Assembly (NCBI GenBank): GCA_017634065.1 | Contig: JAGBOC010000025.1 | Coordinates: 1 to 55,358, forward strand | DNA length: 55,358 bases | Source of the DNA: Lachnospiraceae bacterium | Lineage (GTDB): Bacteria > Bacillota > Clostridia > Lachnospirales > Lachnospiraceae | Direction: 5' to 3' | In this document: one piece after another, positions 1 through 55,123 of the stretch | Layout: every line of letters starts with the position of its first letter | Position numbering within the stretch: the stretch's first letter is position 1 | Notes under the pieces: generated by a model | Told to the model about the DNA's origin: nothing | What the model saw: the letters and a program-made list of their open reading frames with translations, nothing else | The model's database searches: none | Made by a program: the position numbers and the translations under genes

Positions 1-74
1 AAACTCTCTATACTCATAAGCACAACTAAAAATAGTGCCAACAATTTCTTAACTATTCTTGTGCTTTTTTTCAT
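1..74 (-). CDS. 5' end of a secreted surface-family gene, cut by window edge
   Basis: The first 24 codons run off the left end of the window. They encode a signal peptide (MKKSTRIVKKLLALFL and onward) that is nearly identical in DNA to the starts of the genes beginning at 2442, 4602, 51212 and 55123. It has the same upstream leader: a TAGGTCG box about 13 bases before the ATG and the C-rich/G-rich stem-loop element at 165-217. It is therefore a sixth member of the family. Whether the rest of the gene is intact cannot be seen here. Confidence 0.8.
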   Translation of the reverse strand, partial: MKKSTRIVKKLLALFLVVLMSIES

Positions 75-164
75 ATATCTATATCTAACGACCTATTCTT
101 TTACGGGCTCGTAAAGTTCCTTCCCTGCTACTCGGGCTCGCGATGCTCGCCCCTACGGCGAACG
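75..164 (-). promoter_or_regulatory. GC-rich leader segment of the left-edge family gene
   Basis: This lies between the start codon and the conserved leader element. It begins with the TAGGTCG box (89-95 on the minus strand). It continues with short G+C-rich inverted arms (GGGCTCG, GCTCGC, CGGCGAACG types) that stand out from the AT-rich genome. No Shine-Dalgarno sequence is visible near the ATG. Confidence 0.5.
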
Positions 165-217
165 CCAGTACCAACCACCTACAAGTCGCAAAAGTTAGGG
201 GGTACCCATAGGGGGTT
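165..217 (-). repeat. Conserved leader element, copy 1
   Basis: Read on the minus strand it contains CCCCCTATG, three variable bases, ACCCCCTAACTTT, about 12 bases of loop, then TGTAGGTGGTTGGTACTG. The C-rich and G-rich halves are largely complementary, so an RNA hairpin is likely. The same block precedes four other family genes. Here the 5' C-rich part doubles as the 3' end of the small ORF at 195-299. Confidence 0.75.
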
Positions 218-299
218 CGTTTTTTATGCTCATTAGCACTCTGTAACCATCATTCCCCTTGTTCTGCGCCATCTTTAATTGATTTGCAGGAAGGGACAT
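195..299 (-). CDS. Small ORF 1, GNDGY peptide (34 aa)
   Basis: ATG to TAA, 34 residues, beginning MSLPANQLKM with a core GNDGYRVLMSIK. A second ORF at 2603-2695, in the same position before another family gene, encodes MSLPTNSLKM and GNDGYIVLTSIK. Within the shared core several codon differences are synonymous (G, G, V, L), which suggests selection on the peptide. No good Shine-Dalgarno site is visible. The start lies just after the hepT terminator. Function is unknown; a relic of a longer gene or a leader peptide are both possible. Confidence 0.45.
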   Translation of the reverse strand: MSLPANQLKMAQNKGNDGYRVLMSIKNEPPMGTP

Positions 300-304
300 G
301 GAAA

Positions 305-333
305 GCAATAAAAATGCAGGGGGGTACCCTGCA
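305..333 (-). terminator. Intrinsic terminator of the mntA-hepT unit
   Basis: On the minus strand, TGCAGGG and CCCTGCA form a 7-bp stem with a 5-base loop followed by TTTTT. It lies about 120 bases past the hepT stop. The same TGCAGGG terminator recurs after the genes ending at 2992 and 51619. Confidence 0.8.
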
Positions 334-451
334 ATATTTAAACAAACTTTATTAACAAACAATAATTACATCTGCTACTTTTTCTAAAATTCAATAGCAA
401 AAACGCAGCACTTGAATTTTACAAACAACAATTAAATGTCATTCTCATATT

Positions 452-796
452 CTAATTTGATATATTGATTTTTAATAATTTATTTTTCAAATTTGGTATA
501 TCTTCAGTTAATGTTATCCACATCTGCTCCCTATCAACGTTTTCATATTCGTGTGCATGAATGTTTCTCATTCCTCTCATTTCTGCCCAAGGTATTTCTA
601 TGTGTTTCAATTTTAAACCATCAGACATATGAATTGATAATTCTCCTATTTGAAATATACACATATCAGTAGATAATTGATATAAATTACTTTTCAAATA
701 AGTATTTTTATCATTATCAATGCCTTCCAATATTTCTTTTATATTATCACAATACTTTATTAATTTTTCTATTATTATTTTATCTTTGTCTAACAT
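452..796 (-). CDS. hepT: HepT-like ribonuclease toxin (DUF86)
   Basis: Small all-helical protein of 114 aa. The HEPN RNase motif RX4HXY is visible as RNIHAHEY about two thirds along. Family knowledge: HepT is an RNase toxin neutralised when its partner MntA transfers AMP groups to the tyrosine of this motif. I place the start at the ATG at 796 because AAAAAGG lies 6 bases before it; an ATG at 820 in the same frame lacks this. The start overlaps the end of mntA by 17 bases, so the two are translationally coupled. The order antitoxin then toxin is usual. Confidence 0.85.
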   Translation of the reverse strand: MLDKDKIIIEKLIKYCDNIKEILEGIDNDKNTYLKSNLYQLSTDMCIFQIGELSIHMSDGLKLKHIEIPWAEMRGMRNIHAHEYENVDREQMWITLTEDIPNLKNKLLKINISN

Positions 797-1106
797 ATAA
801 AACCTTTTTATCTTTGTCAATTCTATCTAAAAAATCTTTATCTTCTATCCCATCCATAATAACATCAACATGACAATTAAAAATTTTCTCAAGTTCATTT
901 ACAAAATTAAAATAAGCAAAATATCCTCTTAAATCACCACTTTTGATAAAAAAGTCAACATCACTATTCTCATTCTGTTCATTTCTTGAGTACGAGCCAA
1001 ATAGACTAAGTTCATTTACACCATATGACTTAGCAATCGGAACTGCTTTTTCTTTAATTTCTTCAATCGTATATATTTTCTTTCCCATACATTCATATTT
1101 TATCAT
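780..1106 (-). CDS. mntA: MntA-like nucleotidyltransferase antitoxin
   Basis: Minimal nucleotidyltransferase (108 aa). It has the GSX10DXD signature, seen as GSYSRN...NSDVDFF, which carries the two metal-binding aspartates. Family knowledge: MntA AMPylates HepT and so blocks its RNase activity. Neither in-frame ATG (1106 or 1088) has a clear Shine-Dalgarno site; the family usually starts close to the second. It overlaps hepT downstream, and a shared terminator lies at 305-333. Confidence 0.85.
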   Translation of the reverse strand: MIKYECMGKKIYTIEEIKEKAVPIAKSYGVNELSLFGSYSRNEQNENSDVDFFIKSGDLRGYFAYFNFVNELEKIFNCHVDVIMDGIEDKDFLDRIDKDKKVLYVRQR

Positions 1107-1200
1107 ACTTTTTTACATTTCACAACATTAACATTTGCTTGAATAAAGCCAAGTAAAAATTAATTAAGCACAACTATTTTTTACAACTATAGTTTTATAA

Positions 1201-2442
1201 TTAAGTAGCTGTCAATTTTAAATCATCAAATGTTAATAAGCCATAGTCGGTAGTTGATGTTGGTTTATACTTAATATATAATGTTTCATTTTTTTTCATA
1301 GTAACATTATAAATTGTTACCCCAACACTAGATCCAGATGTTGTTGATTCATAGCTACCGAGTGTCCAAGCAGATTCTGCATTATTACCTATTGCATAAT
1401 ATAGCGATCCTTCAAGATTACCATGCCAAGTAAAAGTCAACTCACCATCTTTCGTACTTGTGCATAGAGGTAACCCATCCTGAATTTTTCCTACTTTATT
1501 ATTAATTTTATAAAAAGGTTTAAATATTTTAGTCTTTATTTTTATAGCATTATTGTACAATTGAGAAGGTATCTTGGCCGACACACGCAGAGAACCAGTG
1601 GAAATGCGAGATTTACCATGGGAATCAGCGGCATTACATGATAGTGGCGTACCTGGGAGGCTTAAATATAAATCGCCATCCTTTTGGTCCGTCACAGCTT
1701 TATCGATTTGATAAACATAGTCGTTTGCATCCGACCAGCAAGGATAAGGAACATAGTCCAAAACTGTGCGTTGTGATGCCTCTAGCTCCTCACCATGGAA
1801 AAATGCTACACCAGCTTTCTGACTCGCCATAGATGAAATAGATGTTCCAGAAAACAATTTAAATGAAGCACTAAAATTATGTGGTAGCTCCGCACCTATA
1901 CTTGTTGAATTTGCCGGCCACGTGTCAGTAGCATTACCTTGAATTACGGGCCGTATGTAAACGAATTCTTGGATATAATCTGCATCAGTCGAATTATACT
2001 CATAGACATTAGCTGTATATTTTCCATTTTTTGAGCCACTCACCTTAGCGTGAGCATATCGATCTGGTTGTACAGCATAAAGCACCATATCATACCAAAA
2101 ATCTGTTTTACTATTACCATTTGCCTGATAGGCACTATTGCTATACCAGCGAATTTCTTTAGTATTATTTAATGATGAATAAATATTTGGGATTATTTCA
2201 ACATTACTCACTGTTATTCCTGCCAAATATGATGCTATTGCTCCATCAATTTTAGCATCTATTGATGTATTATATTGGTCTATCTGACTTTGAAAATCAT
2301 TTTTAAGACTATCAAACTCTGCCTTTGTGATAAAGGCTGAGCCGTCATTATCACTCACGACCGCCCCAAAACTCTCTATACTCATAAGCACAACTAAAAA
2401 TAGTGCCAACAATTTCTTAACTATTCTTGTGCTTTTTTTCAT
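1201..2442 (-). CDS. Secreted surface-family protein (413 aa)
   Basis: Signal peptide at residues 1-27, then the family segment SDNDGSAFITKAEFDSLK followed by a heptad-like helix (QSQIDQYNTSIDAKIDGAI) to about residue 73. A variable body follows, then a beta-rich tail (ETLYIKYKP...LLTFDDLKLT). There is no LPXTG anchor or C-terminal membrane segment, so the mode of surface attachment is unknown. Residues 1-75 are almost identical to the genes at 4602, 51212 and 55123, while the body is unrelated to theirs. It is preceded by the shared leader (TAGGTCG box 2456-2462, element 2478-2530) and small ORF 2. No recognised enzymatic domain; adhesin or binding protein is a guess. Confidence 0.8.
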   Translation of the reverse strand: MKKSTRIVKKLLALFLVVLMSIESFGAVVSDNDGSAFITKAEFDSLKNDFQSQIDQYNTSIDAKIDGAIASYLAGITVSNVEIIPNIYSSLNNTKEIRWYSNSAYQANGNSKTDFWYDMVLYAVQPDRYAHAKVSGSKNGKYTANVYEYNSTDADYIQEFVYIRPVIQGNATDTWPANSTSIGAELPHNFSASFKLFSGTSISSMASQKAGVAFFHGEELEASQRTVLDYVPYPCWSDANDYVYQIDKAVTDQKDGDLYLSLPGTPLSCNAADSHGKSRISTGSLRVSAKIPSQLYNNAIKIKTKIFKPFYKINNKVGKIQDGLPLCTSTKDGELTFTWHGNLEGSLYYAIGNNAESAWTLGSYESTTSGSSVGVTIYNVTMKKNETLYIKYKPTSTTDYGLLTFDDLKLTAT

Positions 2443-2477
2443 AAATTAAAATCTACGACCTATGTGCGAACGCGAGT

Positions 2478-2530
2478 CCCCAGTACCAACTACCTACATT
2501 TTACAAAAGTTAGGGGGTACTCATAGGGGT
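2478..2530 (-). repeat. Conserved leader element, copy 2
   Basis: Same architecture as copy 1: minus-strand CCCCTATG, then ACCCCCTAACTTTTG, then TGTAGGTAGTTGGTACTGGGG. Copies 1 and 2 have GTACC before the C run, where copies 3-5 have CAACC. Both alternatives can pair with the conserved GGTTGGTAC arm, which hints at maintained pairing. It lies only 36 bases from the start codon of the gene at 2442, the shortest spacing in the set. Confidence 0.75.
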
Positions 2531-2602
2531 ACATACGACCCACTCAAAGCTGGTGGAGTAAAATAATTAGTTAAATTCCTTTTTCATTAAAAAAGTACAG
2601 TA

Positions 2603-2695
2603 TTAGAGGGCTTGTTTTTTTATGCTCGTTAAAACTATGTAGCCATCATTTCCCACGATCTTATCCATCTTTAGTGAATTGGTAGGAAGGGACAT
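2603..2695 (-). CDS. Small ORF 2, GNDGY peptide (30 aa)
   Basis: ATG to TAA, 30 residues, beginning MSLPTNSLKMDK with core GNDGYIVLTSIK. It is a homologue of the ORF at 195-299, in the same position relative to the leader element and terminator. GGATAG lies just upstream of the ATG as a weak ribosome site. It sits between the terminator of the gene at 2992-4602 and the leader of the gene at 2442. Function unknown. Confidence 0.45.
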   Translation of the reverse strand: MSLPTNSLKMDKIVGNDGYIVLTSIKKQAL

Positions 2696-2803
2696 TTCTA
2701 TCCAAAATGTCAATACCTATTTTTAACTAATTCTAACTACTATAATGCAATTTATACAATAAGGATGTATGTATACTTCTCTTGACTGATGTAGTTAAAA
2801 AAG
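2696..2803. other. AT-rich spacer upstream of small ORF 2
   Basis: AT-rich stretch between a terminator and small ORF 2. It must hold the promoter if the gene at 2442 is transcribed on its own. No convincing -35/-10 pair was found. One GTATAC occurs at 2771-2776, the hexamer that is repeated upstream of the gene at 55123. Confidence 0.3.
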
Positions 2804-2830
2804 CAATAAAAATGCAGGGGTTGCCCTGCA
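2804..2830 (-). terminator. Intrinsic terminator after family gene 2992-4602
   Basis: TGCAGGG and CCCTGCA stem with a short loop and TTTTT on the minus strand, 160 bases past the stop at 2992. It is the same terminator type as at 305-333 and 51439-51473. Confidence 0.8.
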
Positions 2831-2991
2831 ATTTTGTTATAAATATGCATTTATAAAATTGTACTCTAATCTACATTATACCATATAATATATATAGAAA
2901 ATAATATTATTTTCGCATTTATTTTGAAAATTGACCAATAATATTTAACAACATTTAAACTATTATGGATTTAAAAAATAGTGTTATTCTA

Positions 2992-4602
2992 TTAAGATTT
3001 TGCTGTATATTGGTAAGAATTACAGTTTTTTGTATCAAGTGTAATAATCCAGTCACTATTTAAATATGTAGTTTCATTATGTGGTACCCATTTGACATAC
3101 GCAATACCTGTTTTTGGCATTTCAAATTTTATTTTGCATTTTCTATTTGTTGTTGTAGCATAATTCTCCTTTGTTGTTCCATCATCAACTGTCACCTGAA
3201 TAGCATTTGATGTATTGACCTTATTAGTAAACGGACCAGAAGATAAATAGATATCAACTTCATGGGTATTATCAACATAAGTGTCTGCTGAATTATGTAC
3301 ATGTGTATAAGAAAATGTAGGTTCCCAAATTATTTCTGCTCCTTCTTCTCCTCCAAGTAATGCAAATCCTTTTTCTAAAGTTTCCTTTTCTTTTCTCACT
3401 GATATTTTATCTGTAACATCAACTATTAAATCTTTATCTACTTGATAAATCTCATCAGCTGTGACAGCACGAGGAATAAGTCCGATAGTTGGAAATTTTG
3501 TAGCTTCACTTTTAGTAAATTGTGTAGGCATATCTGCAATACCTCTTGGTACACTTGCTTTATCAGTAGCGCTAGTATGAAATGCCCATCCACCATAACG
3601 GCCTTTTGCATTGATGGTCATTGCATCATGTACATTCTTTGGTGTTATATTAGAATTTGTATCAGTACTCAAAAGCTTCGTCCAGTCTTTATTAGCTACA
3701 CGCCATTCAGCATCCCCATCATATGCTACAATATGAGTGTAATCATATTGCTTGCCATCTTTATAAATCAGCTCAACTTTTGGAGACCATTGGTCTCTCA
3801 ACTGATCATCAGTAAATGTATATGTGTCAGATCTGACAATATTTCCAGTAGATTTATTCTTTGTATCGTTTTGATAAGTTACTTTCCACACAGCAGCTCT
3901 AATATTTTCCCAACTGTCATACCATGCATCAACCCCAACAAAGGTTGTAAAATCTTTAAGAGTTATATTTTGAGTATACATATCAGGTCGATCTAATCCA
4001 TACCAATACCTTGTCGGATGTGACCAATCTACACATCTGCTAATATTATATACATCACACCAACGTAGAGCACGACCCGTCCAATAAAATTTTCCATAAG
4101 TTGCATATGTTGCCCCATCAGATGACACAACATTTCTATGGCAAGTATCAACTGATGTCCAATCATTTTCATATGTACCTCTAACAGCATGTGTAACTGC
4201 TTGATACTGTTCAGCTGCAGTGCCAATATCTCTACTCTCAAGCAGCAACATACCAAACATAAAGTTTATGTCAATATTAGGAACTATATATTCATTTTGC
4301 AGACTTCCACTTATCATTGATACATCAGTCCAATCATTATAGATAATACTTTTGTTTTGCTGCTTGGTCAAAGTTATGCCAGCCAAATAACTCGCTATTG
4401 CGCCATCTATCTTACTATCAATACTTGTATTGTATTGGTCAATCTGACTCTGAAAGTTATTTTTTAAACTGTCAAACTCTGCCTTCGTTATGAATGCCGA
4501 CCCATCATTATCGCTAACTACAGCACCAAAACTCTCTATGCTCATAAGCACAACTAAAAATAGTACCAACAATCTCTTAACTATTCTTGTGCTTTTTCTC
4601 AT
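2992..4602 (-). CDS. Secreted surface-family protein (536 aa)
   Basis: Signal peptide (MRKSTRIVKRLLVLFL...), then SDNDGSAFITKAEFDSLK and the QIDQYNTSIDSKIDGAI helix to about residue 75. A large tryptophan- and tyrosine-rich variable body follows, then a tail (AYVKWVPHNETTYL...WIITLDT) that resembles the other members' ends. The body does not resemble its neighbour at 1201-2442. No anchor motif. The leader is long (4603-4943) with a TAGGTCG box, GC-rich arms, a 72-bp hairpin repeat and the leader element. Function unknown; extracellular location is inferred from the signal peptide. Confidence 0.8.
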   Translation of the reverse strand: MRKSTRIVKRLLVLFLVVLMSIESFGAVVSDNDGSAFITKAEFDSLKNNFQSQIDQYNTSIDSKIDGAIASYLAGITLTKQQNKSIIYNDWTDVSMISGSLQNEYIVPNIDINFMFGMLLLESRDIGTAAEQYQAVTHAVRGTYENDWTSVDTCHRNVVSSDGATYATYGKFYWTGRALRWCDVYNISRCVDWSHPTRYWYGLDRPDMYTQNITLKDFTTFVGVDAWYDSWENIRAAVWKVTYQNDTKNKSTGNIVRSDTYTFTDDQLRDQWSPKVELIYKDGKQYDYTHIVAYDGDAEWRVANKDWTKLLSTDTNSNITPKNVHDAMTINAKGRYGGWAFHTSATDKASVPRGIADMPTQFTKSEATKFPTIGLIPRAVTADEIYQVDKDLIVDVTDKISVRKEKETLEKGFALLGGEEGAEIIWEPTFSYTHVHNSADTYVDNTHEVDIYLSSGPFTNKVNTSNAIQVTVDDGTTKENYATTTNRKCKIKFEMPKTGIAYVKWVPHNETTYLNSDWIITLDTKNCNSYQYTAKS

Positions 4603-4759
4603 AAATAATGTGTATCTTACGACCTATTCTTTTGCGGGCTCGCACCCCAAGGGTGCTTTGTCGCACTTCCTTCGCTACGCTCGGAAAAAACGCTCGGGCG
4701 CATGCTCGCCCCTACAAGCTACTCTCCTACAGATGCCCCCTTTATACTAATTCACTATC
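4603..4759 (-). promoter_or_regulatory. GC-rich leader segment of family gene 4602
   Basis: It contains the TAGGTCG box (4620-4626 on the plus strand as CGACCTA) and a run of palindromic GC-rich pieces (GGGCTCGC, CACCCCAAGGGTG, CTTCGCTACGCTCGG, GGGCGCATGCTCGCCC). The GC content is far above the surrounding sequence. This looks like structured RNA or a decayed repeat insertion; no gene is seen. Confidence 0.4.
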
Positions 4760-4831
4760 TCAAATGCCATCTTGTCTACCCTAGCAATCTCAAAAAATGC
4801 TTCTTTTTAGCATTTTTTGAAGAGCGGAGGC
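4760..4831 (-). repeat. 72-bp hairpin repeat, copy A
   Basis: It is almost identical to 51237-51308. Its core is an 11-bp inverted repeat, CAAAAAATGCT and AGCATTTTTTG, around a 7-base loop, beside GTCTACCCTAGC and AGAGCGGAGGC flanks. On the minus strand it lies inside the transcribed leader, and its poly-T arm makes it terminator-like. Confidence 0.7.
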
Positions 4832-4888
4832 GATGAAGCGTCAGTGGAATCGCGACTTCGCGGTTCCACGATAGCGAAATCCGGCGAA

Positions 4889-4943
4889 CCCCAGTACCAA
4901 CCACCTACAAGTTATGAAAGTTAGGGGGTTGGCATAGGGGGTT
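4889..4943 (-). repeat. Conserved leader element, copy 3
   Basis: Minus-strand CCCCCTATG, CCA, ACCCCCTAACTTT, CATAACT, TGTAGGTGGTTGGTACTGGGG. CAACCCCCTA can pair with TAGGTGGTTG over 10 positions with one mismatch. It abuts the rmuC terminator almost directly, which leaves no room for a promoter between the two. Confidence 0.75.
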
Positions 4944-4951
4944 CCAGGGAA

Positions 4952-4982
4952 TAAAAATGGTAGCCTATACCACAGCTACCAT
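4952..4982 (-). terminator. Intrinsic terminator of rmuC
   Basis: ATGGTAGC and GCTACCAT form an 8-bp stem followed by TTTTT on the minus strand, 22 bases past the rmuC stop. Confidence 0.8.
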
Positions 4983-5003
4983 ATAGTGAAAATCAGTTCT
5001 TTC

Positions 5004-6215
5004 TTATTCTTCTATCCCCAATATGCTATCCGACTCGGAAGCTCCAATAGTGTCAAATCCTTTTAATTTACTTGTTATCATAGAGTTTCTCTTTGATAAT
5101 TGCTCTGTTGACTTTGCTGCCGTGTCTATACTCTTCTTGGTTTTCTCTATTTCTTCTTCAAACTTTTCATATTGACCCTTTATTGCTCGAAGAATCTCAG
5201 CAATTTTTTTACTATTCTTATTTATTTGCAAAAACTTAAATCCTACACTAAAACTATTTATAAGAGCAGTGATAGTAGTAGGTCCAGCAAGTAAAACTCT
5301 ATGCTTCTTTTGACATTCATCCGCAAGGCTATCAATGCGAAGACACTCTGCATAAAGACCTTCTGTAGGCAAAAACATTATCCCAAACTCTGTTGTAATA
5401 GGTGGCTCAACATATTTTTCTGATATACTCTTTGCCTGTTTTATTACTTCTTCTTTCAATTTCTTTACTGCTTCATTTAGCATTATTTCATCCCTTCTAT
5501 TTGAAGCATCCACTATTGCCATATATCTATCATTTGGGAACTTGGCATCCACAGGTAGGTACACAAAACCATCATCATCTTTATTAGGTATCTTAATTGC
5601 AAAATCTACCATCCTATCCGCATCATCTTTTATCTTATACTGAACTTCATACATACTACTTGGCAATATACTTTCAAGTATGTTTTCAAGTTGTTTTTCA
5701 CCAAATATACCTCTTGCCTTTACGCTTGATAGAGATTGTTGCAAATCAGAAATGGTACCAGACATATTTAGGAGCTGACCATTTGTAACTTGCAAGTTTT
5801 GAAGTTGCTCTCCAATAGTTTTGAAGCTACTATCAAGTCTCTCATTCAATGACTTATCAAGTTTTTCATTTATATTTCGCTCAATTATGCCAAGTTTCTC
5901 TTCATTTGCATTTCGTATCTCATTTAACTTTTTTTCATTTGTATCATTAATCTTATCAAGAGATTCTTGCATACCTTTCGTGAGATTGCTTGAGTTTATC
6001 TGATTTTGATTTAGTATTTTGACAAAACCTTCATTTGAATCTTTAAGAACATTTTTTTCAAGGTCTTTAATCATATTTGCTAAAAATCTTGACTCGTCTT
6101 TTTTCTTTGAGCCATTATTAGCAACTAACACTATCAAAACTATTACCGCAATAAGTAAAATTGCAACCATTGCTATAACTACTATCATCATATTATTTAT
6201 TTCCATATTTCCCAC
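5004..6215 (-). CDS. rmuC: RmuC-family DNA recombination protein
   Basis: 403 aa. An N-terminal membrane segment (about residues 9-32) is followed by a coiled coil (about 45-150). The RmuC nuclease-like core then follows (KARGIFGEKQLENILE, YLPVDAKFPNDRY, FLPTEGLYAE). The family limits inversions at short repeats in E. coli; the biochemical activity is inferred from a predicted restriction-endonuclease-like fold. The start is GTG at 6215, 7 bases after AGGAGG. A -10-like TATAAT lies at 6252-6257 on the minus strand. It is a single-gene unit with its own terminator. Confidence 0.88.
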   Translation of the reverse strand: MGNMEINNMMIVVIAMVAILLIAVIVLIVLVANNGSKKKDESRFLANMIKDLEKNVLKDSNEGFVKILNQNQINSSNLTKGMQESLDKINDTNEKKLNEIRNANEEKLGIIERNINEKLDKSLNERLDSSFKTIGEQLQNLQVTNGQLLNMSGTISDLQQSLSSVKARGIFGEKQLENILESILPSSMYEVQYKIKDDADRMVDFAIKIPNKDDDGFVYLPVDAKFPNDRYMAIVDASNRRDEIMLNEAVKKLKEEVIKQAKSISEKYVEPPITTEFGIMFLPTEGLYAECLRIDSLADECQKKHRVLLAGPTTITALINSFSVGFKFLQINKNSKKIAEILRAIKGQYEKFEEEIEKTKKSIDTAAKSTEQLSKRNSMITSKLKGFDTIGASESDSILGIEE

Positions 6216-6319
6216 TGCTAATCCTCCTTAATATTTATATTATTACATTTGATTATATTTAACTAAACCCTAATGCTTAAAAATCAACTTTATACTGATA
6301 ACCAAATCGCAATTTTTTA

Positions 6320-6348
6320 TTGAAAATGAATGCTATATGGGTTAAAAT
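6320..6348 (+). promoter_or_regulatory. Promoter of the yihY gene, placing +1 at the ATG
   Basis: TTGAAA (6320-6325), a 17-base spacer and TAAAAT (6343-6348). The ATG at 6356 begins 7 bases after the -10, where transcription should start. There is no Shine-Dalgarno site, so a leaderless mRNA is predicted. Confidence 0.6.
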
Positions 6349-6355
6349 ATAGGCT

Positions 6356-7366: not shown

Positions 7367-7377
7367 CTATATTTAAA

Positions 7378-8280: not shown

Positions 8281-8345
8281 GAATAAACTCTATACTAATT
8301 TAACTAACATTTTAGGAACTCTTTGACTTAAAACTAATTTCATAG

Positions 8346-9314: not shown

Positions 9315-9352
9315 TGATTTATACTTAACTACTTTACTTATTACTTTTATAT

Positions 9353-10360: not shown

Positions 10361-10362
10361 AA

Positions 10363-24123: not shown

Positions 24124-25311
24124 ATGATAAAACGAGTAGAATATATAAAAAAATTGAATAGTTTCAAAGAAAAAGAACTAATTAAAGTCATCACAGGTTT
24201 AAGAAGGTCTGGGAAATCAATTTTGATGGAACAGTTTATAGATTACCTAAAAGAAAATGGAGTAAAAGATAATCAAATCATTAAAATAAACTTTGAAGAA
24301 AAAGAAAACGAAGAGTTTCTAGATAAAGATAAATTATACAAACACCTTATTGAAATGATTAAAAAAAATAAAGAAGTATATAGTTATTTGTTTTTAGATG
24401 AAATACAAAAAGTTAGAGATTTCCAGATTATAATTGATAGCCTATATGTAAAAAAAAACATCGATATATATATAACAGGCTCAAATGCTGATTTATTATC
24501 AAGTGAACTTGCAACATTACTCACAGGAAGATATGTTGAAATTAAAATGCTTCCACTATCATACAAAGAATATATTGATAATAAAAATGATAGTGTAGAA
24601 TTATTTAATAATTATCTAAATAATGGTGGATTGCCTTATTTATTGAATTTGGAAACGGATACAATGAAATATGAATATATAATAGGATTGTATAATACGA
24701 TACTAAATAACGATATAATTAGAAGGCATAATGATATTGATATATCAACATTTGAAAATATTTTGAATTTCATTATAGATAATGTTTCAAATATTATATC
24801 CCCAAACTCTATTGCCAAAACATTAAACTCATATGGCAAAAAAGTATCATATAATACAGTCGAAAAGTACATAAGGTATATGAAAGAATGTTATCTAATA
24901 TATGAATGTGGCAGGTATAATATTTTAGGGAAGCAAAGTTTAAAAACTTTGTCAAAATATTATCTGGTTGATTTGGGATTTAAAAAAGTTTCCTCAATAA
25001 AAAATAATACAAATTTAGGATATAATATTGAGAATATAGTTTACCTTGAACTACTAAGAAGAGGAAATATTATAAATGTTGGCAAGGTAAATGATTTAGA
25101 AGTTGACTTTGTTGTAAAAAAAGAAAATGAAATAGAGTATTACCAAGTTTCAACTTCTTTATATGACGAGAAAACAAAAGTTCGAGAAATTAATTCATTA
25201 AAAGCCATAAAGGATAATTATAAAAAAACAATACTGACGCTTGATGATTATGGCATAGGAAATATTGATGGAATTAATATTGTGAATTTGAGAAAATGGC
25301 TACTTGCGTAA
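24124..25311 (+). CDS. AAA-family ATPase with DUF4143 domain
   Basis: 395 aa. N-terminal AAA_14 ATPase: Walker A GLRRSGKS, Walker B YLFLDEIQ, sensor ITGSNADLL, TGRYVEIKMLPLSYKEY. The C-terminal DUF4143 has PD-(D/E)XK-like residues (ENIVYLELLRRG, DLEVDFVV, EYYQVS). These proteins are widespread in anaerobes and often single, mobile-like genes; their substrate is unknown. I use the ATG at 24124; the TTG at 24088 in the same frame is part of the -35 box. The gene is strongly AT-rich and stands alone. Confidence 0.85.
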   Translation: MIKRVEYIKKLNSFKEKELIKVITGLRRSGKSILMEQFIDYLKENGVKDNQIIKINFEEKENEEFLDKDKLYKHLIEMIKKNKEVYSYLFLDEIQKVRDFQIIIDSLYVKKNIDIYITGSNADLLSSELATLLTGRYVEIKMLPLSYKEYIDNKNDSVELFNNYLNNGGLPYLLNLETDTMKYEYIIGLYNTILNNDIIRRHNDIDISTFENILNFIIDNVSNIISPNSIAKTLNSYGKKVSYNTVEKYIRYMKECYLIYECGRYNILGKQSLKTLSKYYLVDLGFKKVSSIKNNTNLGYNIENIVYLELLRRGNIINVGKVNDLEVDFVVKKENEIEYYQVSTSLYDEKTKVREINSLKAIKDNYKKTILTLDDYGIGNIDGINIVNLRKWLLA

Positions 25312-44321: not shown

Positions 44322-44323
44322 AA

Positions 44324-44445: not shown

Positions 44446-44473
44446 ATTATAGCATAGATAAGTTAAAAGTCAA
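44446..44473 (-). promoter_or_regulatory. Promoter of the deaminase-permease operon
   Basis: On the minus strand TTGACT, a 16-base spacer and TATAAT with extended TGC. The start is predicted near 44439. TGAAAC repeats lie just upstream at 44482-44497. Confidence 0.7.
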
Positions 44474-44481
44474 CTTATTTA

Positions 44482-44548: not shown

Positions 44549-44573
44549 AAATATTTAATTCATCTCTAAACTG

Positions 44574-44589
44574 TGTTATAATTTTTATC
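44574..44589 (+). promoter_or_regulatory. Extended -10 promoter of the LacI-family gene
   Basis: TGTTATAAT (TATAAT at 44577-44582) lies 7 bases before the ATG at 44590, with only a weak TTTAAT -35. No Shine-Dalgarno site, so a leaderless transcript is expected. Confidence 0.55.
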
Positions 44590-45600: not shown

Positions 45601-45620
45601 CTTACTCACCCCTATTTTTT
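45582..45620. terminator. Bidirectional terminator between LacI and nitrilase genes
   Basis: AAAAAATAGG and CCTATTTTTT flank an inner GTGAGT/ACTCAC stem. There are T runs on both strands between two convergent genes. Confidence 0.9.
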
Positions 45621-46420: not shown

Positions 46421-46451
46421 TCTATCTCCTTACTTCCAAATGTAATTCATA

Positions 46452-47849: not shown

Positions 47850-47864
47850 ATATATCTCCAATCT

Positions 47865-47891
47865 AAAAATAGCGGGTTTTTAAACCCGCTA
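47865..47891 (-). terminator. Terminator of the SSS symporter gene
   Basis: TAGCGGGTTT and AAACCCGCTA form a 10-bp stem with a very short loop, followed by TTTTT on the minus strand. It ends 4 bases before the next gene's longest possible start. Confidence 0.9.
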
Positions 47892-47899
47892 ATTAATAT

Positions 47900-49279
47900 T
47901 TACTTTTTTGCTGACTTATCTATAACGCTTATAAGGAAGAAAGGTATTACTGATGCAAGAAGCGCAACTATACCTGTTGTAAGATATGGAGAACTATATT
48001 GAAGTGGAGTGAACTGCCATATCATTGCAAAAACTAAACTTATAAGCATACTATAAAATGCTGCCTTTTCAGTAGCACCTTTCCAAACTCTTCCAAAAAT
48101 AAATACTATAGATATACCAATATATACATAATAACTAAATAGCACAAGTCCTAATACTCTATCAAATGCTGTTCCAAATAATACTGTTATCCCAGCAACT
48201 ATGAATATAAATAAACGAAGTAAAAACATATTTTCTTTTTCACTCATAGGAGTCTTTCTGAAAGGCTTAATCAAATCTTCTACTATCATATTAGAGCAGA
48301 TGAGAAGCATAGTATCAGCAGTTGATACAAGAGCGGCAAGTATTGCTAAAATAATTGTAATGCCTAAAACATTTGGGAATAAATACATAACGAGTTCTGG
48401 CATAGCGACACCTGCTTCAACATTTGGTACAACCATATAAGCTATAAGTCCTAGGAATAAACTACACATACCAAGTGCTATATAAACTATACCACCAATA
48501 ATACATGCATTCTTTGCTACTTTTTCAGTCTTACATCCCCAGATTCTTTGGATAAGTTCTGGAACTGCAAGCATAACTAATGTACTTGATGTGAGATAGT
48601 CTACTGCCCAAATCCAAGAACCAAATGGTCTTGGGTCAAGTCTTTCTGGAGTAAGTGATGCCATAACATTTCCCATACCACCTACATTCTTCAAACCAAA
48701 TACAAGAACTAATATAACTCCTAGTGCTCCAAAGCATAGATTGAAAGTATCATTCCAAGCTACTGCAAGAAGTCCACCTATACAAGTATAAATTGAAACA
48801 ACAATTGCAAATATTGTGATTGCTACGATTGGATTCCATCCAAAAAGTGTCTGTGCAAGATTTCCACCTGCTTTAAATTGAGAACCAGTTACAAGCATAA
48901 TTGATAAAAGCATAAGAATTGTTGCAAGAAGTTCACATCTTTTAGAATATCTCTTATTGATGTATCTGCACATTGAAGCTTCTTCAATATTCCAATAACT
49001 CTTTGCAAGGAATACACCTAATAAGAAAATTCCGATACCCATAGAAACCGGGAATATATAAGCACTTATACCATACGCAAAACCATCTGATGCTGTTCCC
49101 ATGACATTTCCACCGCCCCATTCAGATGCAACTATTGTACAGATTGCAACGAAAAGGCCGATTCTTCTACCAGCATTTGAAAACTCTGATGCATTTTTTG
49201 CTTTTTTACCAGCTACTATACCAATAATGGTAAGTACAGCAAAATACAAGATGCATAGCACAATTGCCATTAACTTCAT
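47900..49279 (-). CDS. Sodium:solute symporter (SSS family)
   Basis: 459 aa with 12-13 membrane spans. SSS features: ASEFSNAGRRIGLFVAICTI, SEWGGGNVMGTASDGFAYG, YTCIGGLLAVAWNDTFNLCF and AALVSTADTMLLICSNM (the Na+-site serine/threonine motif). The substrate is unknown; a nucleobase or its breakdown product fits the neighbourhood. AAGGAGG precedes the ATG. Its promoter is followed immediately by a TGAAAC repeat array. Confidence 0.88.
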   Translation of the reverse strand: MKLMAIVLCILYFAVLTIIGIVAGKKAKNASEFSNAGRRIGLFVAICTIVASEWGGGNVMGTASDGFAYGISAYIFPVSMGIGIFLLGVFLAKSYWNIEEASMCRYINKRYSKRCELLATILMLLSIMLVTGSQFKAGGNLAQTLFGWNPIVAITIFAIVVSIYTCIGGLLAVAWNDTFNLCFGALGVILVLVFGLKNVGGMGNVMASLTPERLDPRPFGSWIWAVDYLTSSTLVMLAVPELIQRIWGCKTEKVAKNACIIGGIVYIALGMCSLFLGLIAYMVVPNVEAGVAMPELVMYLFPNVLGITIILAILAALVSTADTMLLICSNMIVEDLIKPFRKTPMSEKENMFLLRLFIFIVAGITVLFGTAFDRVLGLVLFSYYVYIGISIVFIFGRVWKGATEKAAFYSMLISLVFAMIWQFTPLQYSSPYLTTGIVALLASVIPFFLISVIDKSAKK

Positions 49280-49296
49280 AATAATCCTCCTTAATA

Positions 49297-49358
49297 TGAA
49301 ACATTATGAAACAAAATGAAACTATTATTATTATACCACTGTCTAAAAAACATTTCAA
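49297..49358 (-). promoter_or_regulatory. SSS symporter promoter with TGAAAC operator array
   Basis: On the minus strand TTGAAA, a 17-base spacer and TATAAT (49330-49335), with the extended form TGG. Three TGAAAC copies at 49297, 49307 and 49317 (plus-strand coordinates, exact 10-base period) cover the transcription start and the first bases of the mRNA, a repressor position. Confidence 0.7.
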
Positions 49359-49523
49359 TATCGGATTTTAGAAGTAAAGAAGCAGGGTTATGAAAACTTA
49401 AATTATCTCTCATTATTCATAAAAAAAATATGCCAAATATCTACTAATATCGATTTGGCATATTTTTAATAAATATGATACTATGAAAGAATTATATTAT
49501 GATTACTTAAAATTATTTAATAA

Positions 49524-51212
49524 TTATTCAGATACTACCTTTATGTCAAGACTATTAGCTTCTATTCTAGTGTACCTAGATTGGTCAGCAGGAATAAAGC
49601 GTAAATAAAGTTTATCACCAATATCTGTATTCTGGATTTTATATTCAGGAATAGTAATTGTATATTGTTTTCCACAATCTAATTGCAAATTATTCAATAC
49701 CCTATCAGTATATATGTTACTTGTACCATCATTTATAGTTCCTGTCAAATAATTTGGACTATCATACAATTCTTTGTTACTTATAAATATATTAGTTTTT
49801 TCATCATTATTTATTGCCTCTGTCAAAGCATCGTACCCTATAATTTTTAACTTAATAACTATATCACCATTTTGTAATAAACCTTCTGTTAATACAAGAC
49901 CATCGCAGTATTTTAGCATTGTATCATTATTAGTTATGAATTGTCCATTGCCATAATCCTTTAAATAATAACTTGGTGGAATTGGAAGATACATTACACC
50001 GGTGGCTTCATTACCACTAGCGGCAATAGGTTTAAATGTAGTACTCCAGCCCCAATCCACTAACGAAGCATGTCCTAACACTGCTGTTCGAACAGAGCAA
50101 TTGGCCTTGTTATATGCAGTAACCTCGGAATAATCTATATTCCCATCGGAATCCACTTTCCAGCCCTGAAATTGTTTCGTTGCAGAATATGGGAAAGAAC
50201 CATATTTAATCAGATTATTAGTATAGTTCATATTATAAGGTATTACAGCTTCCAAATTTCGTGTGATTTGTACAGATCCATTAGCACCATAATGTGAGGT
50301 AGACGATATACTTTCAGAAGTATTACCATTTCCACCTATAAATTGATACATGCCATTATAAATATCACCAGCGCTAAAAGCTAAATCCAACGTATAATCT
50401 GATTTAGTACTACCCGCAAGTTGCGCTCCAGTAAATGTTCCCGACAAAACTTTAGAACTATCATTATTTAAAGTAACATTAAAAGTGTGATCCTCATCTG
50501 TTTGCGACCAGTATAAGTGCATAGCTCTTTCGTCAAGTGAGCCATTGCGATTTTTTCTCTTAAAGTTTACCGTCCAATATTGATTTGGGTAAATACGATT
50601 TTGATAATCAACCACATAATATCTCTTTTTGCTATCCTGTAACAATCTAAAAGTTTCGTGCGGAACAGTACATGCATTCCTCAAATCGGTTCCGGCCCAG
50701 TCAGTGTTTTCTGGTTGCGTATATCCAATCGTCCCACCGAAAATAGTTTGTGCTACACTTACTTGATTTACTAAACCATAGGCACCTGTAAAACTCCACA
50801 TTCCACCACGTGTACCTCGTGAAGATTGAGGAAGTTTTAGATCCTGCCAACCTAAAGTGCTTACTGACTTGGTTTTTGATGTGTTAAGTGAATATACCCT
50901 TCCGTATAATTTAAAATCTTTATAAAATCTCATGTTTGCATAATTATCCACAGCAATTTTTACCTTTGTTTCTTTATTTACCCTAATTCCACTTAAATAT
51001 GCTGCTATCGCCCCATCAATTTTACTATCAATGGATGTATTATACTGGTCAATCTGGCTTTGGAAGTTATTCTTTAAACTGTCAAACTCTGCCTTTGTGA
51101 TAAAGGCACTTCCATCATTATCACTAACTACAGCAGCAAAACTATTTATACTCATAAGCACAACTAAAAATAAAGCCAGTAGCTTTTTCACCATTTTTGT
51201 GCTCTTTCTCAT
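49524..51212 (-). CDS. Secreted surface-family protein (562 aa)
   Basis: Signal peptide and family segment (SDNDGSAFITKAEFDSLK, QSQIDQYNTSIDSKIDGAI) to residue 75. A variable body rich in Asn, Gly, Ser, Thr, Tyr and Trp follows, then the C-terminal beta-rich tail (KLYLRFIPADQSRY...LDIKVVSE). The body is unlike the other members. Leader: TAGGTCG box (51227-51233), 72-bp hairpin repeat, GC-rich arms and leader element. No anchor motif; extracellular location inferred. Function unknown. Confidence 0.8.
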   Translation of the reverse strand: MRKSTKMVKKLLALFLVVLMSINSFAAVVSDNDGSAFITKAEFDSLKNNFQSQIDQYNTSIDSKIDGAIAAYLSGIRVNKETKVKIAVDNYANMRFYKDFKLYGRVYSLNTSKTKSVSTLGWQDLKLPQSSRGTRGGMWSFTGAYGLVNQVSVAQTIFGGTIGYTQPENTDWAGTDLRNACTVPHETFRLLQDSKKRYYVVDYQNRIYPNQYWTVNFKRKNRNGSLDERAMHLYWSQTDEDHTFNVTLNNDSSKVLSGTFTGAQLAGSTKSDYTLDLAFSAGDIYNGMYQFIGGNGNTSESISSTSHYGANGSVQITRNLEAVIPYNMNYTNNLIKYGSFPYSATKQFQGWKVDSDGNIDYSEVTAYNKANCSVRTAVLGHASLVDWGWSTTFKPIAASGNEATGVMYLPIPPSYYLKDYGNGQFITNNDTMLKYCDGLVLTEGLLQNGDIVIKLKIIGYDALTEAINNDEKTNIFISNKELYDSPNYLTGTINDGTSNIYTDRVLNNLQLDCGKQYTITIPEYKIQNTDIGDKLYLRFIPADQSRYTRIEANSLDIKVVSE

Positions 51213-51236
51213 ATATCTATATCTAACGACCTAATT

Positions 51237-51308
51237 TCAAATACCCTCTTGTCTACCCTAGCAATCTCAAAAAATGCTTCTTTTTAGCATTTTTTGAAGA
51301 GCGGAGGC
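51237..51308 (-). repeat. 72-bp hairpin repeat, copy B
   Basis: Nearly identical to 4760-4831, including the 11-bp inverted repeat around TCTTTTT. It sits at the equivalent place in the leader of the gene at 51212. After it the sequence is again GC-rich and palindromic (GTGTCCGCG/CGCGAACAC, GCGCCGACGGCG). Confidence 0.7.
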
Positions 51309-51374
51309 CACGAAACGGTTAAGTGTTCGCGTTTACGCGGACACTTTGTAGTGAAGTGCGCCGACGGCGACGCT

Positions 51375-51429
51375 CCCCAGTACCAACCACCTGCAAGTTA
51401 TGAAAGTTAGGGGGTTGACATAGGGGGTT
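51375..51429 (-). repeat. Conserved leader element, copy 4
   Basis: CCCCCTATG, TCA, ACCCCCTAACTTT, CATAACT, TGCAGGTGGTTGGTACTGGGG on the minus strand. The preceding gene's terminator ends only about 10 bases upstream. Confidence 0.75.
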
Positions 51430-51438
51430 AAAAAGAGC

Positions 51439-51473
51439 AATAAAAATGCAGGGTTCGTAGCACTTCCCTGCAT
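51439..51473 (-). terminator. Terminator of the tandem surface-gene operon
   Basis: ATGCAGGG and CCCTGCAT stem with a 12-base loop, then TTTTT on the minus strand. It lies 145 bases after the stop at 51619, directly before leader element copy 4. Confidence 0.75.
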
Positions 51474-51618
51474 TTAAAATATTTTAATCAACTTCACTAT
51501 ATCAATCGTTTTATCATTTTCTTATGCTATATAAAGAAACTTTAATACTATATTATCATAATACATACTTTTTTTCATTGTTAATCATTGTATGCGGAAA
51601 AAACATTATGCAACATTA
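51474..51618. other. AT-rich 3' untranslated spacer
   Basis: AT-rich sequence between the stop at 51619 and the terminator. No gene, repeat or clear promoter is seen. Confidence 0.4.
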
Positions 51619-53286
51619 CTAGCTCTTCAAGATTCGACCATTTTCAAGTAAATCAATCTGTCCACCTGCATAATCTGCATTCCCACTTTCCCACCATCTT
51701 AAGAAATATGTTTTATTAGTATCCGGGTTATCAATTGTTATAGTAACAGTAGTATTTGCTGGTATACTTAAGTAATTATTAGTGCTGTCATATGAATAAT
51801 TTGTTGTTGCTCCTGCTGAAACTGAACTACCAGTTATCTTTTTAATTGAATTCTTTTTATGAGATGTCCAAGTATTCATATCATAACCATTTGGAAACTC
51901 TTCACTCATAACTTGCACACAAATATTTGATACCGTATTGCTAATTGTTGGTGAAATTCTAACATCAAATCTAACTCTTGATGCATTATTAGTTACAGTA
52001 AATATTGGTATCCCAGAATAAAAATGAGCATATTGCACTTTCCCTTCATAATCAGTATATTTTAATTTCCCATTTTTAAACTGATTTAATGTATTCCAAT
52101 AATTTGTGCCACCACTAATACTTGGAGTATTAGGTGCTACTTCAGAATATGTATTTTTTAGTTTAAACTTTGGAGTAAATCTCCAATTTCTTCTTGGCCC
52201 TATCACTTGCCCCTGATCAGTACCCCAATTAATCCACCACATCCATTTTTCTGTTTTATCTGTTATGTATAGATTTGTAGCTTCTCCGCCTATAACATCG
52301 GCAGTTTCAACATCAACCATATAATCTCTATATTCTTCAAGTTTTGTCTCATCAGTTTCATGAGCATATATAACATCTTCGCATAGAGTATACAAATATA
52401 CATTTTTATCTTCACTATTGGTTGAATGTGATATTAAATATTCTATTGCCCTTACTTCTTCCCCATAATTAGAAGTATTTGCTCTTTTAGCATATCGTTC
52501 TGCGAAATCCCGTGGAATTGGTAATTCATCTACCCAATTATTTTTTACAAGAGTATCAGTAAGATTATCTGCAAGCCATGATTGTCGTGTCCCACAAGCC
52601 CAATTACCTACACCATTACCAATGCCTGTAGCATCTGTATATACAGTATTGATATTTTTATTATTAAATGTACCCGGTTGTACTCCCATTACCCAAGTAT
52701 CAGCTGTGCCACCATATCCAAAGTTTTGATTCATTGTAGTTGTTGTAGACAAGAATAAATTGCAATTATCATAGCCATACTTGCTTATAAGTACAGATGG
52801 GTTCTCTTTATCAAATGTCCATCCTTCCATTTGATCAAAATAACCATTCCCAAGCAATGATAGTTGTGTAAGATTACCATAAGTATATGGCATAAACTCC
52901 AAGTTAACTGGAGCACCAAAATTAGCCCACAATGAATTGATGAATGTGCCACCCTGAAATGTTTGTTTTTTAATACTATTTGTTTTATTTTTTACCATTT
53001 TAGGTTTATTTAAAGTAGCACTATTTACAGGAAAAAAGAGTGATATTTGTTCTTCGTTTTGAACATTTAACCCTGCTAAATATGAATCAATCGCAGCATC
53101 AATTTTATTACCAATACTATAATTATAACTATCTACTTGAGTCTGAAAATTACTTTTAAGTGAATCAAATTCAGCCCTTGTAATAAATGCTGATCCATCA
53201 TTATCACTTACTACGGCTGAAAAAGTGCTAGTGCATAATAACATAGCTATTGATATTATCAAACTCTTTATTTCTTTTACATACAT
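51619..53286 (-). CDS. Secreted surface-family protein, second of a tandem pair (555 aa)
   Basis: The signal peptide is different from the others (MYVKEIKSLIISIAMLLCTS), and the family segment is diverged (SDNDGSAFITRAEFDSLK, QTQVDSYNYSIGNKIDAAID). The body is homologous over its whole length to the protein encoded at 53339-55123 (FQGGTFINSL, YFDQMEGWTFDKE, IIGPRRNWRFTPKFKLKNT, GTNYWNTLNQFKNG, FLRWWESGN). It has no leader element; AAAGGG gives an ordinary ribosome site. It follows its paralogue by 52 bases, so it is co-transcribed. Probably an old tandem duplication. Confidence 0.82.
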   Translation of the reverse strand: MYVKEIKSLIISIAMLLCTSTFSAVVSDNDGSAFITRAEFDSLKSNFQTQVDSYNYSIGNKIDAAIDSYLAGLNVQNEEQISLFFPVNSATLNKPKMVKNKTNSIKKQTFQGGTFINSLWANFGAPVNLEFMPYTYGNLTQLSLLGNGYFDQMEGWTFDKENPSVLISKYGYDNCNLFLSTTTTMNQNFGYGGTADTWVMGVQPGTFNNKNINTVYTDATGIGNGVGNWACGTRQSWLADNLTDTLVKNNWVDELPIPRDFAERYAKRANTSNYGEEVRAIEYLISHSTNSEDKNVYLYTLCEDVIYAHETDETKLEEYRDYMVDVETADVIGGEATNLYITDKTEKWMWWINWGTDQGQVIGPRRNWRFTPKFKLKNTYSEVAPNTPSISGGTNYWNTLNQFKNGKLKYTDYEGKVQYAHFYSGIPIFTVTNNASRVRFDVRISPTISNTVSNICVQVMSEEFPNGYDMNTWTSHKKNSIKKITGSSVSAGATTNYSYDSTNNYLSIPANTTVTITIDNPDTNKTYFLRWWESGNADYAGGQIDLLENGRILKS

Positions 53287-53338
53287 AATTCAATTCCCTT
53301 TATAAATAATTTATAAATGTAAAAATAGTAAACAGTAT

Positions 53339-55123
53339 TTATGTAATTGTTATGCTACTATTATTTAGCTCTACTATTTTCCCACCACTAAAATTAGTGT
53401 TCCCATTTTCCCACCATCTTATGTAATATGTGGTCTTTCTTTCAGGTTCAGTAAGTTTTATACTAACTTTTTTATCTACAGGAATCTTAAGATAATGATT
53501 TGTCACATCATAGTTATAAACAGTATTGTTATAAGTTCCAGTAAAAGGAACCAATGCATTTAAATCATCAGAGGAAAAACTGCTTATATCATTCTCGTTT
53601 GGGAACTCACTTTTTTTAATTTGAATACAAATCTCTGTAGGTATAGGACTGGTAGTAGTTGTTGGTGTAATTTGTAAATCGAAAGTCCATTCATCAACTA
53701 AATCACTACCAAATGAGTATAATGGCAATCCACCATAAAAATGTGGTACTTGTTTTAGACCTTCATAATCATTAAATTCAAGATAACCATTTTTAAATTG
53801 ATTCAAAGTATTCCAATAATTTGTGCCACCAGTAACACTTGGAGTATTTGGTAATACTTCTGTAGATGTATTTTTTAATTTAAACTTTGGTGTAAACCTC
53901 CAATTTCTACGTGGCCCAATTATTTTATCTTGTGGAACTGGATCAATAAATTGTGGTTTACCAGCAGTACCATTCCATGGTGCACGTGACCAAGCCCATT
54001 TTGATGTAATATCAGATATATATACATTAGTTAGAGCACCACCAATTTTCAAATCATCTTTATTTGGCAAACTATTTATCTTATCCATATAGTCACTATA
54101 TTCCTCTATCTCCGTAGCCCCATCTTCATATGCATATATCACATCATGACATGATGTGTAAATATATAAGTTTTTATCTTCATTTTTAGACTCATGTGTT
54201 AATCGATATGTAGCATTGATCGTATCTTCAGGGTAAGACTGCGCAGTACTAGTATATTGCGTAACATATTTGTCTCTATAAGCTTTATTTACCGGCAGTA
54301 CATCGCACCAATTTGCTTCAACTGTTGTTGCATCTAATGCTCCTTCAGTGAACCAACCATCATACCTCGCAGCCCAAACATCATCACGTGTATTTCCATG
54401 CCCAATACCAGCAGTTGATGTATATGTTATATTAATTCTTTTACCAGTTAATGTACCGGGATAAATTCCTGTCATCATTCGTTCTCCAGCACCACCAGCT
54501 CCATAGTTTTGGTTTCCAGCGCTAGTCATCGCTAAATTCAATTTACAATTATCATAAGCATATTTTTTTGTTAGAATTTCATTTTTATCCTTGGAAAATA
54601 CATAACCTTCCATTTGGTCGTAATAGGAACGACCAAGTAAAGAAAGCCAAGTCCAATTCCAATCAAGTCCAGCCCAACCAGCCTGGTTCCAATTCCCATT
54701 AGAAGGAGCAAGTCCTTCATAACCCTTTGCTGGCCAAGTTATTGAGTAATCAGTAAATAGAGAGTTTAAGTATGTTCCTCCCTGAAATGTTTGTTTAGCG
54801 ATAGTATTATAACCATCTTCCACTGATAAAACCTTATAAGATGATGAGGTTGTAACGGGAAATAAAAGTGCTGCATTTCGCTTTCTAGCAACTCGTATAC
54901 CAGCTAAATATGAACTAATGGCACCATCTATTTTTGCATCAATTGATGTATTATATTGGTCTATTTGGCTCTGAAAACTATTTTTAAGGCTATCAAACTC
55001 TGCTTTTGTGATAAATGCCGATCCATCGTTGTCACCTATCACCGCCCCAAAACTCTCTATACTTATGAGCACAATTAAAAATAAAGCCAGTAGCTTTTTC
55101 ACCATTTTTGTGCTCTTTCTCAT
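53339..55123 (-). CDS. Secreted surface-family protein, first of a tandem pair (594 aa)
   Basis: Standard signal peptide and family segment (residues 1-75), here with GDNDGSAFITKAEF. The body shares FQGGTYLNSL, YYDQMEGYVFSKDKNE, IGPRRNWRFTPKFKLKNT, GTNYWNTLNQFKNG and a C-terminal YYIRWWENGNTNFSGG with the next gene. Aromatic-rich and beta-rich, so a ligand-binding surface is likely, but no known domain is recognised. The leader has the TAGGTCG box (55138-55144) and leader element copy 5, with no 72-bp repeat. Confidence 0.82.
   Translation of the reverse strand: MRKSTKMVKKLLALFLIVLISIESFGAVIGDNDGSAFITKAEFDSLKNSFQSQIDQYNTSIDAKIDGAISSYLAGIRVARKRNAALLFPVTTSSSYKVLSVEDGYNTIAKQTFQGGTYLNSLFTDYSITWPAKGYEGLAPSNGNWNQAGWAGLDWNWTWLSLLGRSYYDQMEGYVFSKDKNEILTKKYAYDNCKLNLAMTSAGNQNYGAGGAGERMMTGIYPGTLTGKRINITYTSTAGIGHGNTRDDVWAARYDGWFTEGALDATTVEANWCDVLPVNKAYRDKYVTQYTSTAQSYPEDTINATYRLTHESKNEDKNLYIYTSCHDVIYAYEDGATEIEEYSDYMDKINSLPNKDDLKIGGALTNVYISDITSKWAWSRAPWNGTAGKPQFIDPVPQDKIIGPRRNWRFTPKFKLKNTSTEVLPNTPSVTGGTNYWNTLNQFKNGYLEFNDYEGLKQVPHFYGGLPLYSFGSDLVDEWTFDLQITPTTTTSPIPTEICIQIKKSEFPNENDISSFSSDDLNALVPFTGTYNNTVYNYDVTNHYLKIPVDKKVSIKLTEPERKTTYYIRWWENGNTNFSGGKIVELNNSSITIT

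Follow-up and report, generated by a model that had tools for sequence, protein, structure and literature searches.

A near-invariant N-terminal helix in a multicopy secreted protein family of one Lachnospiraceae genus: a candidate assembly module for variable bodies

Why would a bacterium place almost the same short segment at the start of secreted proteins that differ in their middles? The question is raised by contig JAGBOC010000025.1 of the Lachnospiraceae bacterium assembly GCA_017634065.1, which was analyzed over a stretch of 55,358 nucleotides (nt), hereafter the window. It is contig C21 of the host genome (G000; 1.61 Mb, 87% complete, 33 contigs). A preliminary description, made from the letters alone, had proposed that six genes, one cut at the left edge, encode a signal peptide and an almost invariant segment, followed by unrelated bodies. 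The gene count was confirmed, with five complete genes on the minus strand and one cut at base 1, of which the signal peptide alone is readable because its near-invariant segment falls outside the window. The near-invariant segments proved accurate as well, with zero or one substitution in four of the five complete genes, the different one being 51619-53286 with 6 of 17 helix residues changed. As set out below, we favor on balance the reading that this segment belongs to a helical assembly module, which would carry interchangeable bodies as homomers and heteromers.

The family is far larger than the window. In the host genome there are 50 module matches, 49 of which were extracted as open reading frames (ORFs) of 413-618 amino acids (aa), one of them open at a contig end. 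These genes, spread over 17 of the 33 contigs among other genes, make up about 5% of the genome (some 49 genes of ~1.6 kb each). Four congeners add 31, 30, 22, and 44 matches; with such numbers, the family is no chance resemblance. A set of 60 related genomes (host included) comprises 12 members of the window's genus, 11 of which match at E 0.001, and 48 genomes of other genera, which gave no module match at that threshold. A 61-row profile matched 2 of 397 genomes of the family Lachnospiraceae (334 genera), both in the window's genus, and 2 of 391 genomes of the class, the second being a weak 28-residue match (G749, from another family, 28 positions at E 5e-5) that was taken as a chance helix. 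Within the genomes searched, the module was thus found only in one Lachnospiraceae genus. The relatives are Lachnospiraceae or Clostridiales metagenome-assembled genomes, and for three of five the assembly source is ruminant reticulum or omasum. Many contigs of G000, G001, G006, G009, and G010 start or stop a few hundred bases from a family gene, as if assembly breaks there, so the copy numbers may be too low.

Each complete window protein follows the same plan: a signal-peptide-like start leads into a stretch close to AVVSDNDGSAF and a helix, after which a long body runs to a beta-rich end. Signal peptides were assigned by eye, and in one protein residues 4-25 are also predicted to be helical. 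In an AlphaFold2 model of that protein (2992-4602; overall mean predicted local distance difference test [pLDDT] 62.8), this signal helix is followed by a low-confidence link and then by the module, which is one helix at residues 40-75 (block pLDDT 71-83). The beta middle is again of low confidence, and the C-terminal beta domain spans ~380 to 536 (block pLDDT 75-94). Iterated profile searches with the last 155 residues reached 130 of 163 bodies and none of 163 shuffled controls; with the first 150 residues or the middle of the same body as query, 26 and 25 of the 163 were reached. The bodies also cluster into linked groups. The plan is therefore a constant helix, a variable middle, and a diverged but mostly homologous tail. 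The bodies are accordingly less unrelated than proposed, differing in their middles but having in those 130 cases a common C-terminal beta domain, and the beta-rich end with its [YF][LI][RK][WYF] strand corresponds to the last well-aligned strand of that domain.

The view that the family has no name held within the searches made, since Pfam, NCBIfam, PHROGs, and PDB profiles gave no convincing match. This applies to the five complete window proteins against Pfam (E up to 1), NCBIfam, and PHROGs, to 46 of the 49 host proteins (0.01) and 51 C-terminal domains picked from 81 against Pfam, to PDB profiles for the module, whole protein, and C-terminal domain, and to Rfam on the window. Weak matches confined to one protein (LysM2, E 0.017; NarU, 0.0066; PUA_4, 0.00069; DUF6061, 0.00094; Big_7, 0.0029; DUF4453; and others) were taken as chance, as was the best PDB sequence profile for the C-terminal domain (ribosomal L16, E 0.29). 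No report of the family, and no match to module strings, was found in the part of the open-access literature that could be searched. These uncultured rumen bacteria thus devote ~5% of a 1.6-Mb genome to a family unnamed in the searched libraries.

A clue to what the module does comes from the arrangement of the genes. Pair statistics were drawn from 177 copies in G000, G001, G002, G005, and G010, leaving out four fragments shorter than 150 aa, a Gly copy at G000 C33:351 with its 57-aa neighbor, and two G002 C3 copies, 98 bp apart and both Gly, that had at first been labeled a pair, while G010 C69, with its 138-bp gap, was newly counted as a pair. Family genes stand singly or in tandem; there are 46 tandem pairs, with a median gap of 15 bp, and nearly all of them combine one A-type N-terminus, near those of singletons, with one of B type (V8, E14, A15, and not Q21); as first listed, A comes first in 19 pairs and B in 27. 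The sole partnerless B-type copy in the five genomes (G001 C5:2, counted among the 77 singletons) sits at a contig end. At column 37, numbered from the first D of DNDG and equivalent to x in KID[x]AI, Gly is present in 77/77 singletons and 45/46 paired B copies, while the residue is S, N, T, E, A, D, Y, L, K, or V in 44/46 paired A copies. In 45 of the 46 pairs, one member has Gly and the other does not (Fisher p 2e-31, a value that ignores the relatedness of copies). The window pair, with bodies ~41% identical, fits this rule with roles reversed (KIDGAI in 53339-55123, KIDAAI in 51619-53286), and each of the four Gly-bearing window copies has a different codon for it. In four genomes obtained after the rule was fixed (G006, G007, G009, and G011), it was followed by 12 of 13 close pairs (gap ≤150 bp), and Gly was present in 21 of 24 unpaired A/S-type copies.

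Helix and body have separate histories in these pairs. The best match of a body among 165 bodies is its own partner for 40/46 A and 39/46 B copies, with 12 of the 13 exceptions pointing to an orthologous or duplicated pair and one to a singleton, whereas the N-terminus is nearest to that of the partner in 0/46 A and 0/46 B copies. On a body tree (FastTree, 163 rows, 317 columns), the single or paired state shifts at least 27 times. Across 15 supported contrasts between singletons and paired A copies, non-Gly goes with pairing in 14.6 on average and the opposite is never seen, while 40 of 43 A-versus-B contrasts run in the direction of the rule and none runs opposite. Could A and B nevertheless be separate homomers encoded in one operon, the Gly loss of A types being inherited drift? 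Pairs do resemble tandem duplicates with similar bodies, and A N-termini are near those of singletons (mean identity 0.76). We think this improbable because almost all copies that lack Gly have a B partner, the replacing residues are many, and the body tree shows the loss repeatedly, on supported branches. Among singletons, three cross-genome pairs have bodies at least 50% identical; in one the body is better conserved than the N-terminus (83 versus 76%), and in two the N-terminus is better conserved than the body (86 versus 73% and 94 versus 77%).

Other forms of the module occur in the genus. Nine alpha loci were found in G004, eight of them complete three-gene operons in the order alpha-beta-gamma and the ninth cut by a contig end. 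A match to G000 at E 1.6e-5 relates the alpha type to the main module. Mean within-type identity is 41.3% for alpha, 42.1% for beta (six of the nine beta genes), and 36.5% for gamma, versus 27.6% over 124 residues on average between alpha and beta. In G008 and G003 the module is diverged (ISVSDGSAFVTKAEFAADLNNLSNRMSSLENSLDAKIDSLVSSYL in G008) and stands ahead of short, different bodies. Hydrophobic-moment analysis revealed a hydrophobic stripe of period 3.54-3.75 in the single, A, B, alpha, gamma, and G008 helices, so that the stripe of period near 3.5-3.7 expected of a coiled-coil helix was seen in all types analyzed but beta.

These findings bear on the earlier idea of a constant oligomerizing or export module with interchangeable domains. 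In its favor, there is one predicted helix with an amphipathic stripe, and helix types follow operon structure while bodies evolve separately. The idea has to be amended in two respects, as most bodies have a common tail domain and the helix comes in several types (single, A, and B; alpha, beta, and gamma in G004; another in G008 and G003). In the mechanism that we propose, AVVSDNDGSAF and the ~36-residue helix would form a coiled-coil-like module joining secreted chains into small complexes. The module would present the variable beta-rich bodies, probably on the cell surface, where they would serve as adhesins or receptor-binding heads. Singletons would form homomers, tandem A+B operons would form heteromers with matched bodies in which the outward helix Gly is needed in one chain kind only, and the G004 operons would form three-chain heteromers. 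Because one, two, and three genes per unit come with equal numbers of helix types, a trimer would be the natural common unit, and because paired A copies are freed from a constraint on singletons and B, A would depend on B. It is from such patterns that we infer the complexes, their stoichiometry, surface display, and binding; adhesin or receptor-binding head is a guess for the bodies, prompted by secretion, copy number, diversity, and beta-rich predictions. We hold more tentatively a bolder version, which may well be wrong, in which the helix is an assembly code evolved in one genus, specifying homomers, A/B heteromers, and alpha-beta-gamma heterotrimers. Body lineages would change repeatedly between the single and the paired format as their helices are exchanged or re-typed, and one outward Gly per complex would serve as a docking spot. 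If the code is real, nature would offer dozens of short coiled coils, homo- and hetero-specific, that obey one simple rule, and the family would show how a surface repertoire can shift between one-, two-, and three-chain complexes.

Several observations weigh against assembly through this helix. Three of the 24 unpaired held-out copies lack Gly; two of these (G006 C112 and G009 C184) have a B-type copy 1.0-1.1 kb off, one member being shortened, and the third (G006 C173, Ser) stands alone. True Gly/Gly pairs exist, namely G010 C57, G009 C83 (the exception among the 13 held-out close pairs), and the wider-spaced G009 C153 (A + B), which resembles G010 C57. The G008/G003 form has Ser at position 37, with no pairs seen; the beta-type helix has no helix-like period (peak at 129 degrees per residue); and G004 bodies follow type rather than operon, in contrast to the A+B pairs. 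N-termini may be copied between loci, and the tree contrasts are not fully independent. No anchor was identified, with no Pfam match to LPXTG or SLH in 46 members and none seen by eye in the C-termini. Finally, column 37 lies ~160 degrees off the hydrophobic centre in the single, A, and B types.

Because of this last result, the Gly constraint is not simple core packing, and that explanation was abandoned as a simple story. The constraint is probably an outward contact, either with the body or through a docking spot of which each complex needs one. The same outward position invites another explanation, in which the outer face of the helix around Gly is a docking tag that binds a putative common scaffold or envelope component, oligomerization being secondary, and in which B alone docks in pairs, with A held by B or released. 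It would fit the lack of a cell-wall anchor domain by Pfam in 46 of the 49 proteins, and also the way in which the N-terminal consensus shifts per genome as a set, as if tracking one partner (12 of 51 columns differ between the singletons of G000 and the 21 singletons of G002). Docking alone, however, leaves matched partner bodies and triplet operons unexplained, and we regard it as unlikely, though less so than separate homomers.

Family units also have a common type of leader. A 15-base head core, part of a putative hairpin, occurs 36 times in G000 (≤1 mismatch); 35 of these lie within ~0.65 kb upstream of a family start (cut gene included), and one runs into a contig end. A looser head pattern was found for 89/118 lead genes, 7/46 second genes, and 19/283 other ORFs. 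Of four leader folds tested, two (one a composite) had z < -3, and the others -1.8 and -0.2. Nearer the gene is a GGTCGT[AT] box, present ≤60 bases from the start in 96/118 lead genes, 0/46 second genes, and 1/283 other ORFs, mostly 16-19 nt before the ATG; six G008 copies showed no such box. The space from head to box holds variable repeat modules, one of which is also found elsewhere in G000. This arrangement suggests that the units are under common regulation. Lead genes have this box in place of a Shine-Dalgarno sequence, of which none is evident by eye. A 22-base module, TAGGGGCGAGCANNNCGAGCCC, has 50 matches in G000 (≤2 mismatches), in varying number in many family leaders and elsewhere (window 134-155; G000 C6:60911, C7:67533, and C25:730-9755). 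An integron-cassette origin of the leader, weighed against the attC pattern, was dropped as the units are dispersed.

A leader and 5' coding region common to the copies would also suit a repertoire for antigenic variation, with few copies expressed and the constant 5' part there for recombination, and there are signs of DNA homogenization. In G002, third-position identity is 0.69 within the genome and 0.46 to other genomes, which together with its own consensus indicates that homogenization takes place, and ten G008 copies chosen for an identical protein segment are 93% identical in DNA there but 38% over the next 300 bases. Recent gene conversion is thus partly likely as a cause in these two genomes. 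In G000, by contrast, module identity among singletons is 92% for the protein against 76% for the DNA, with an agreement of 0.52 at third positions where the residue is shared, which points to old copies under purifying selection and disfavors recent gene conversion behind the constant N-terminus. Most G000 copies are probably in use; most units are preceded by leader boxes, so no silent cassettes are evident. We therefore give such a repertoire very little credence, the least of the explanations considered.

How does the family compare with known systems? Phage tail fibers and receptor-binding proteins, often trimeric, likewise have a constant N-terminal mount and a variable C-terminal head. 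The family differs in its signal peptides, its dispersed chromosomal multicopy genes, and the lack of a PHROG or phage-record match (PHROGs best E 0.023 for the five window proteins; no tblastn match of one window protein to 50,697 phage records). Three IMG/VR loci matching short stretches only were rejected as chance, the two inspected having ITKAEFEELK- and ITKQEFESFK-like stretches in proteins without the family architecture, and no relation to phage proteins was found that would place the family among phage receptor-binding proteins. Paralogous coiled coils such as basic leucine zipper (bZIP) proteins also set partner choice by a few helix positions within one family, but this family is secreted and its informative position is predicted to face outward. 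BclA-like exosporium glycoproteins of Bacillus have a short N-terminal targeting part and trimeric beta heads, but are defined by collagen-like repeats, none of which Pfam reported in the family members searched. Within the module, DNDGSAFITKAEF is like an EF-hand loop, also known from dockerins, at positions 1, 3, 8, 9, and 12. It is unlike one in having Ala for the usual Gly at 6 and, in the G008, alpha, and beta forms, a residue other than Asp at 1. Of the acidic ligand positions, 1, 3, and 12 are kept in the main family, with Ser or Ala at 5. Pfam gave no EF-hand or dockerin match in the five window proteins (E up to 1) or the 46 members (0.01), and PDB profiles reached calmodulin-type chains at E 0.27 or worse only. 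CwpV of Clostridioides difficile probably has another architecture than the family. It is a clostridial surface protein that varies between strains (PMC3080850).

Table 1. Family genes and their leaders in the window
Feature	Position	Strand	Details
Sixth family gene, cut by window edge	1..74	-	ATG at 74-72; start codon and signal peptide MKKSTRIVKKLLALFLVVLMSIES only
Leader of cut gene	134..217	-	Hairpin head core 168-182; GGTCGT box 87-93, nearer the start
Family gene, singleton, 413 aa	1201..2442	-	Gly at column 37, codon 2242-2244
Leader of 1201-2442	2454..2529	-	GGTCGT box 2454-2460; head core 2483-2497, one mismatch
Family gene, singleton, 536 aa	2992..4602	-	Gly at column 37, codon 4402-4404; modeled by AlphaFold2
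Leader of 2992-4602	4618..4943	-	GGTCGT box 4618-4624; head core 4894-4908
Family gene, singleton, 562 aa	49524..51212	-	Gly at column 37, codon 51012-51014
Leader of 49524-51212	51225..51429	-	GGTCGT box 51225-51231; head core 51380-51394, one mismatch
Family gene, second of tandem pair, 555 aa	51619..53286	-	Ala at column 37, codon 53095-53097
Family gene, first of tandem pair, 594 aa	53339..55123	-	Gly at column 37, codon 54923-54925
Leader of tandem pair	55136..55216	-	GGTCGT box 55136-55142; head core 55169-55183

The family loci look like variable islands. Genes or remnants of DUF4143 ATPases adjoin family units in 9 of 13 G000 matches by position (7 of 11 above the Pfam cut-off), at C1:21022, C6:120615, C15:76037, C16:52704, C22:46386, C24:4338, C28:33483, C28:35404, and C30:3204, one such match having five internal stops. 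The DUF4143 match of the window itself (24709-25149) is away from any family unit. In two sister species, ORFs adjoining family genes (L210, G008 C4:31042-33824; L214, G004 C45:147-2042) resemble large serine recombinases in their motif. Between two family genes of the window, at 452-1106, lie two small ORFs that resemble a nucleotidyltransferase and HEPN toxin-antitoxin pair.

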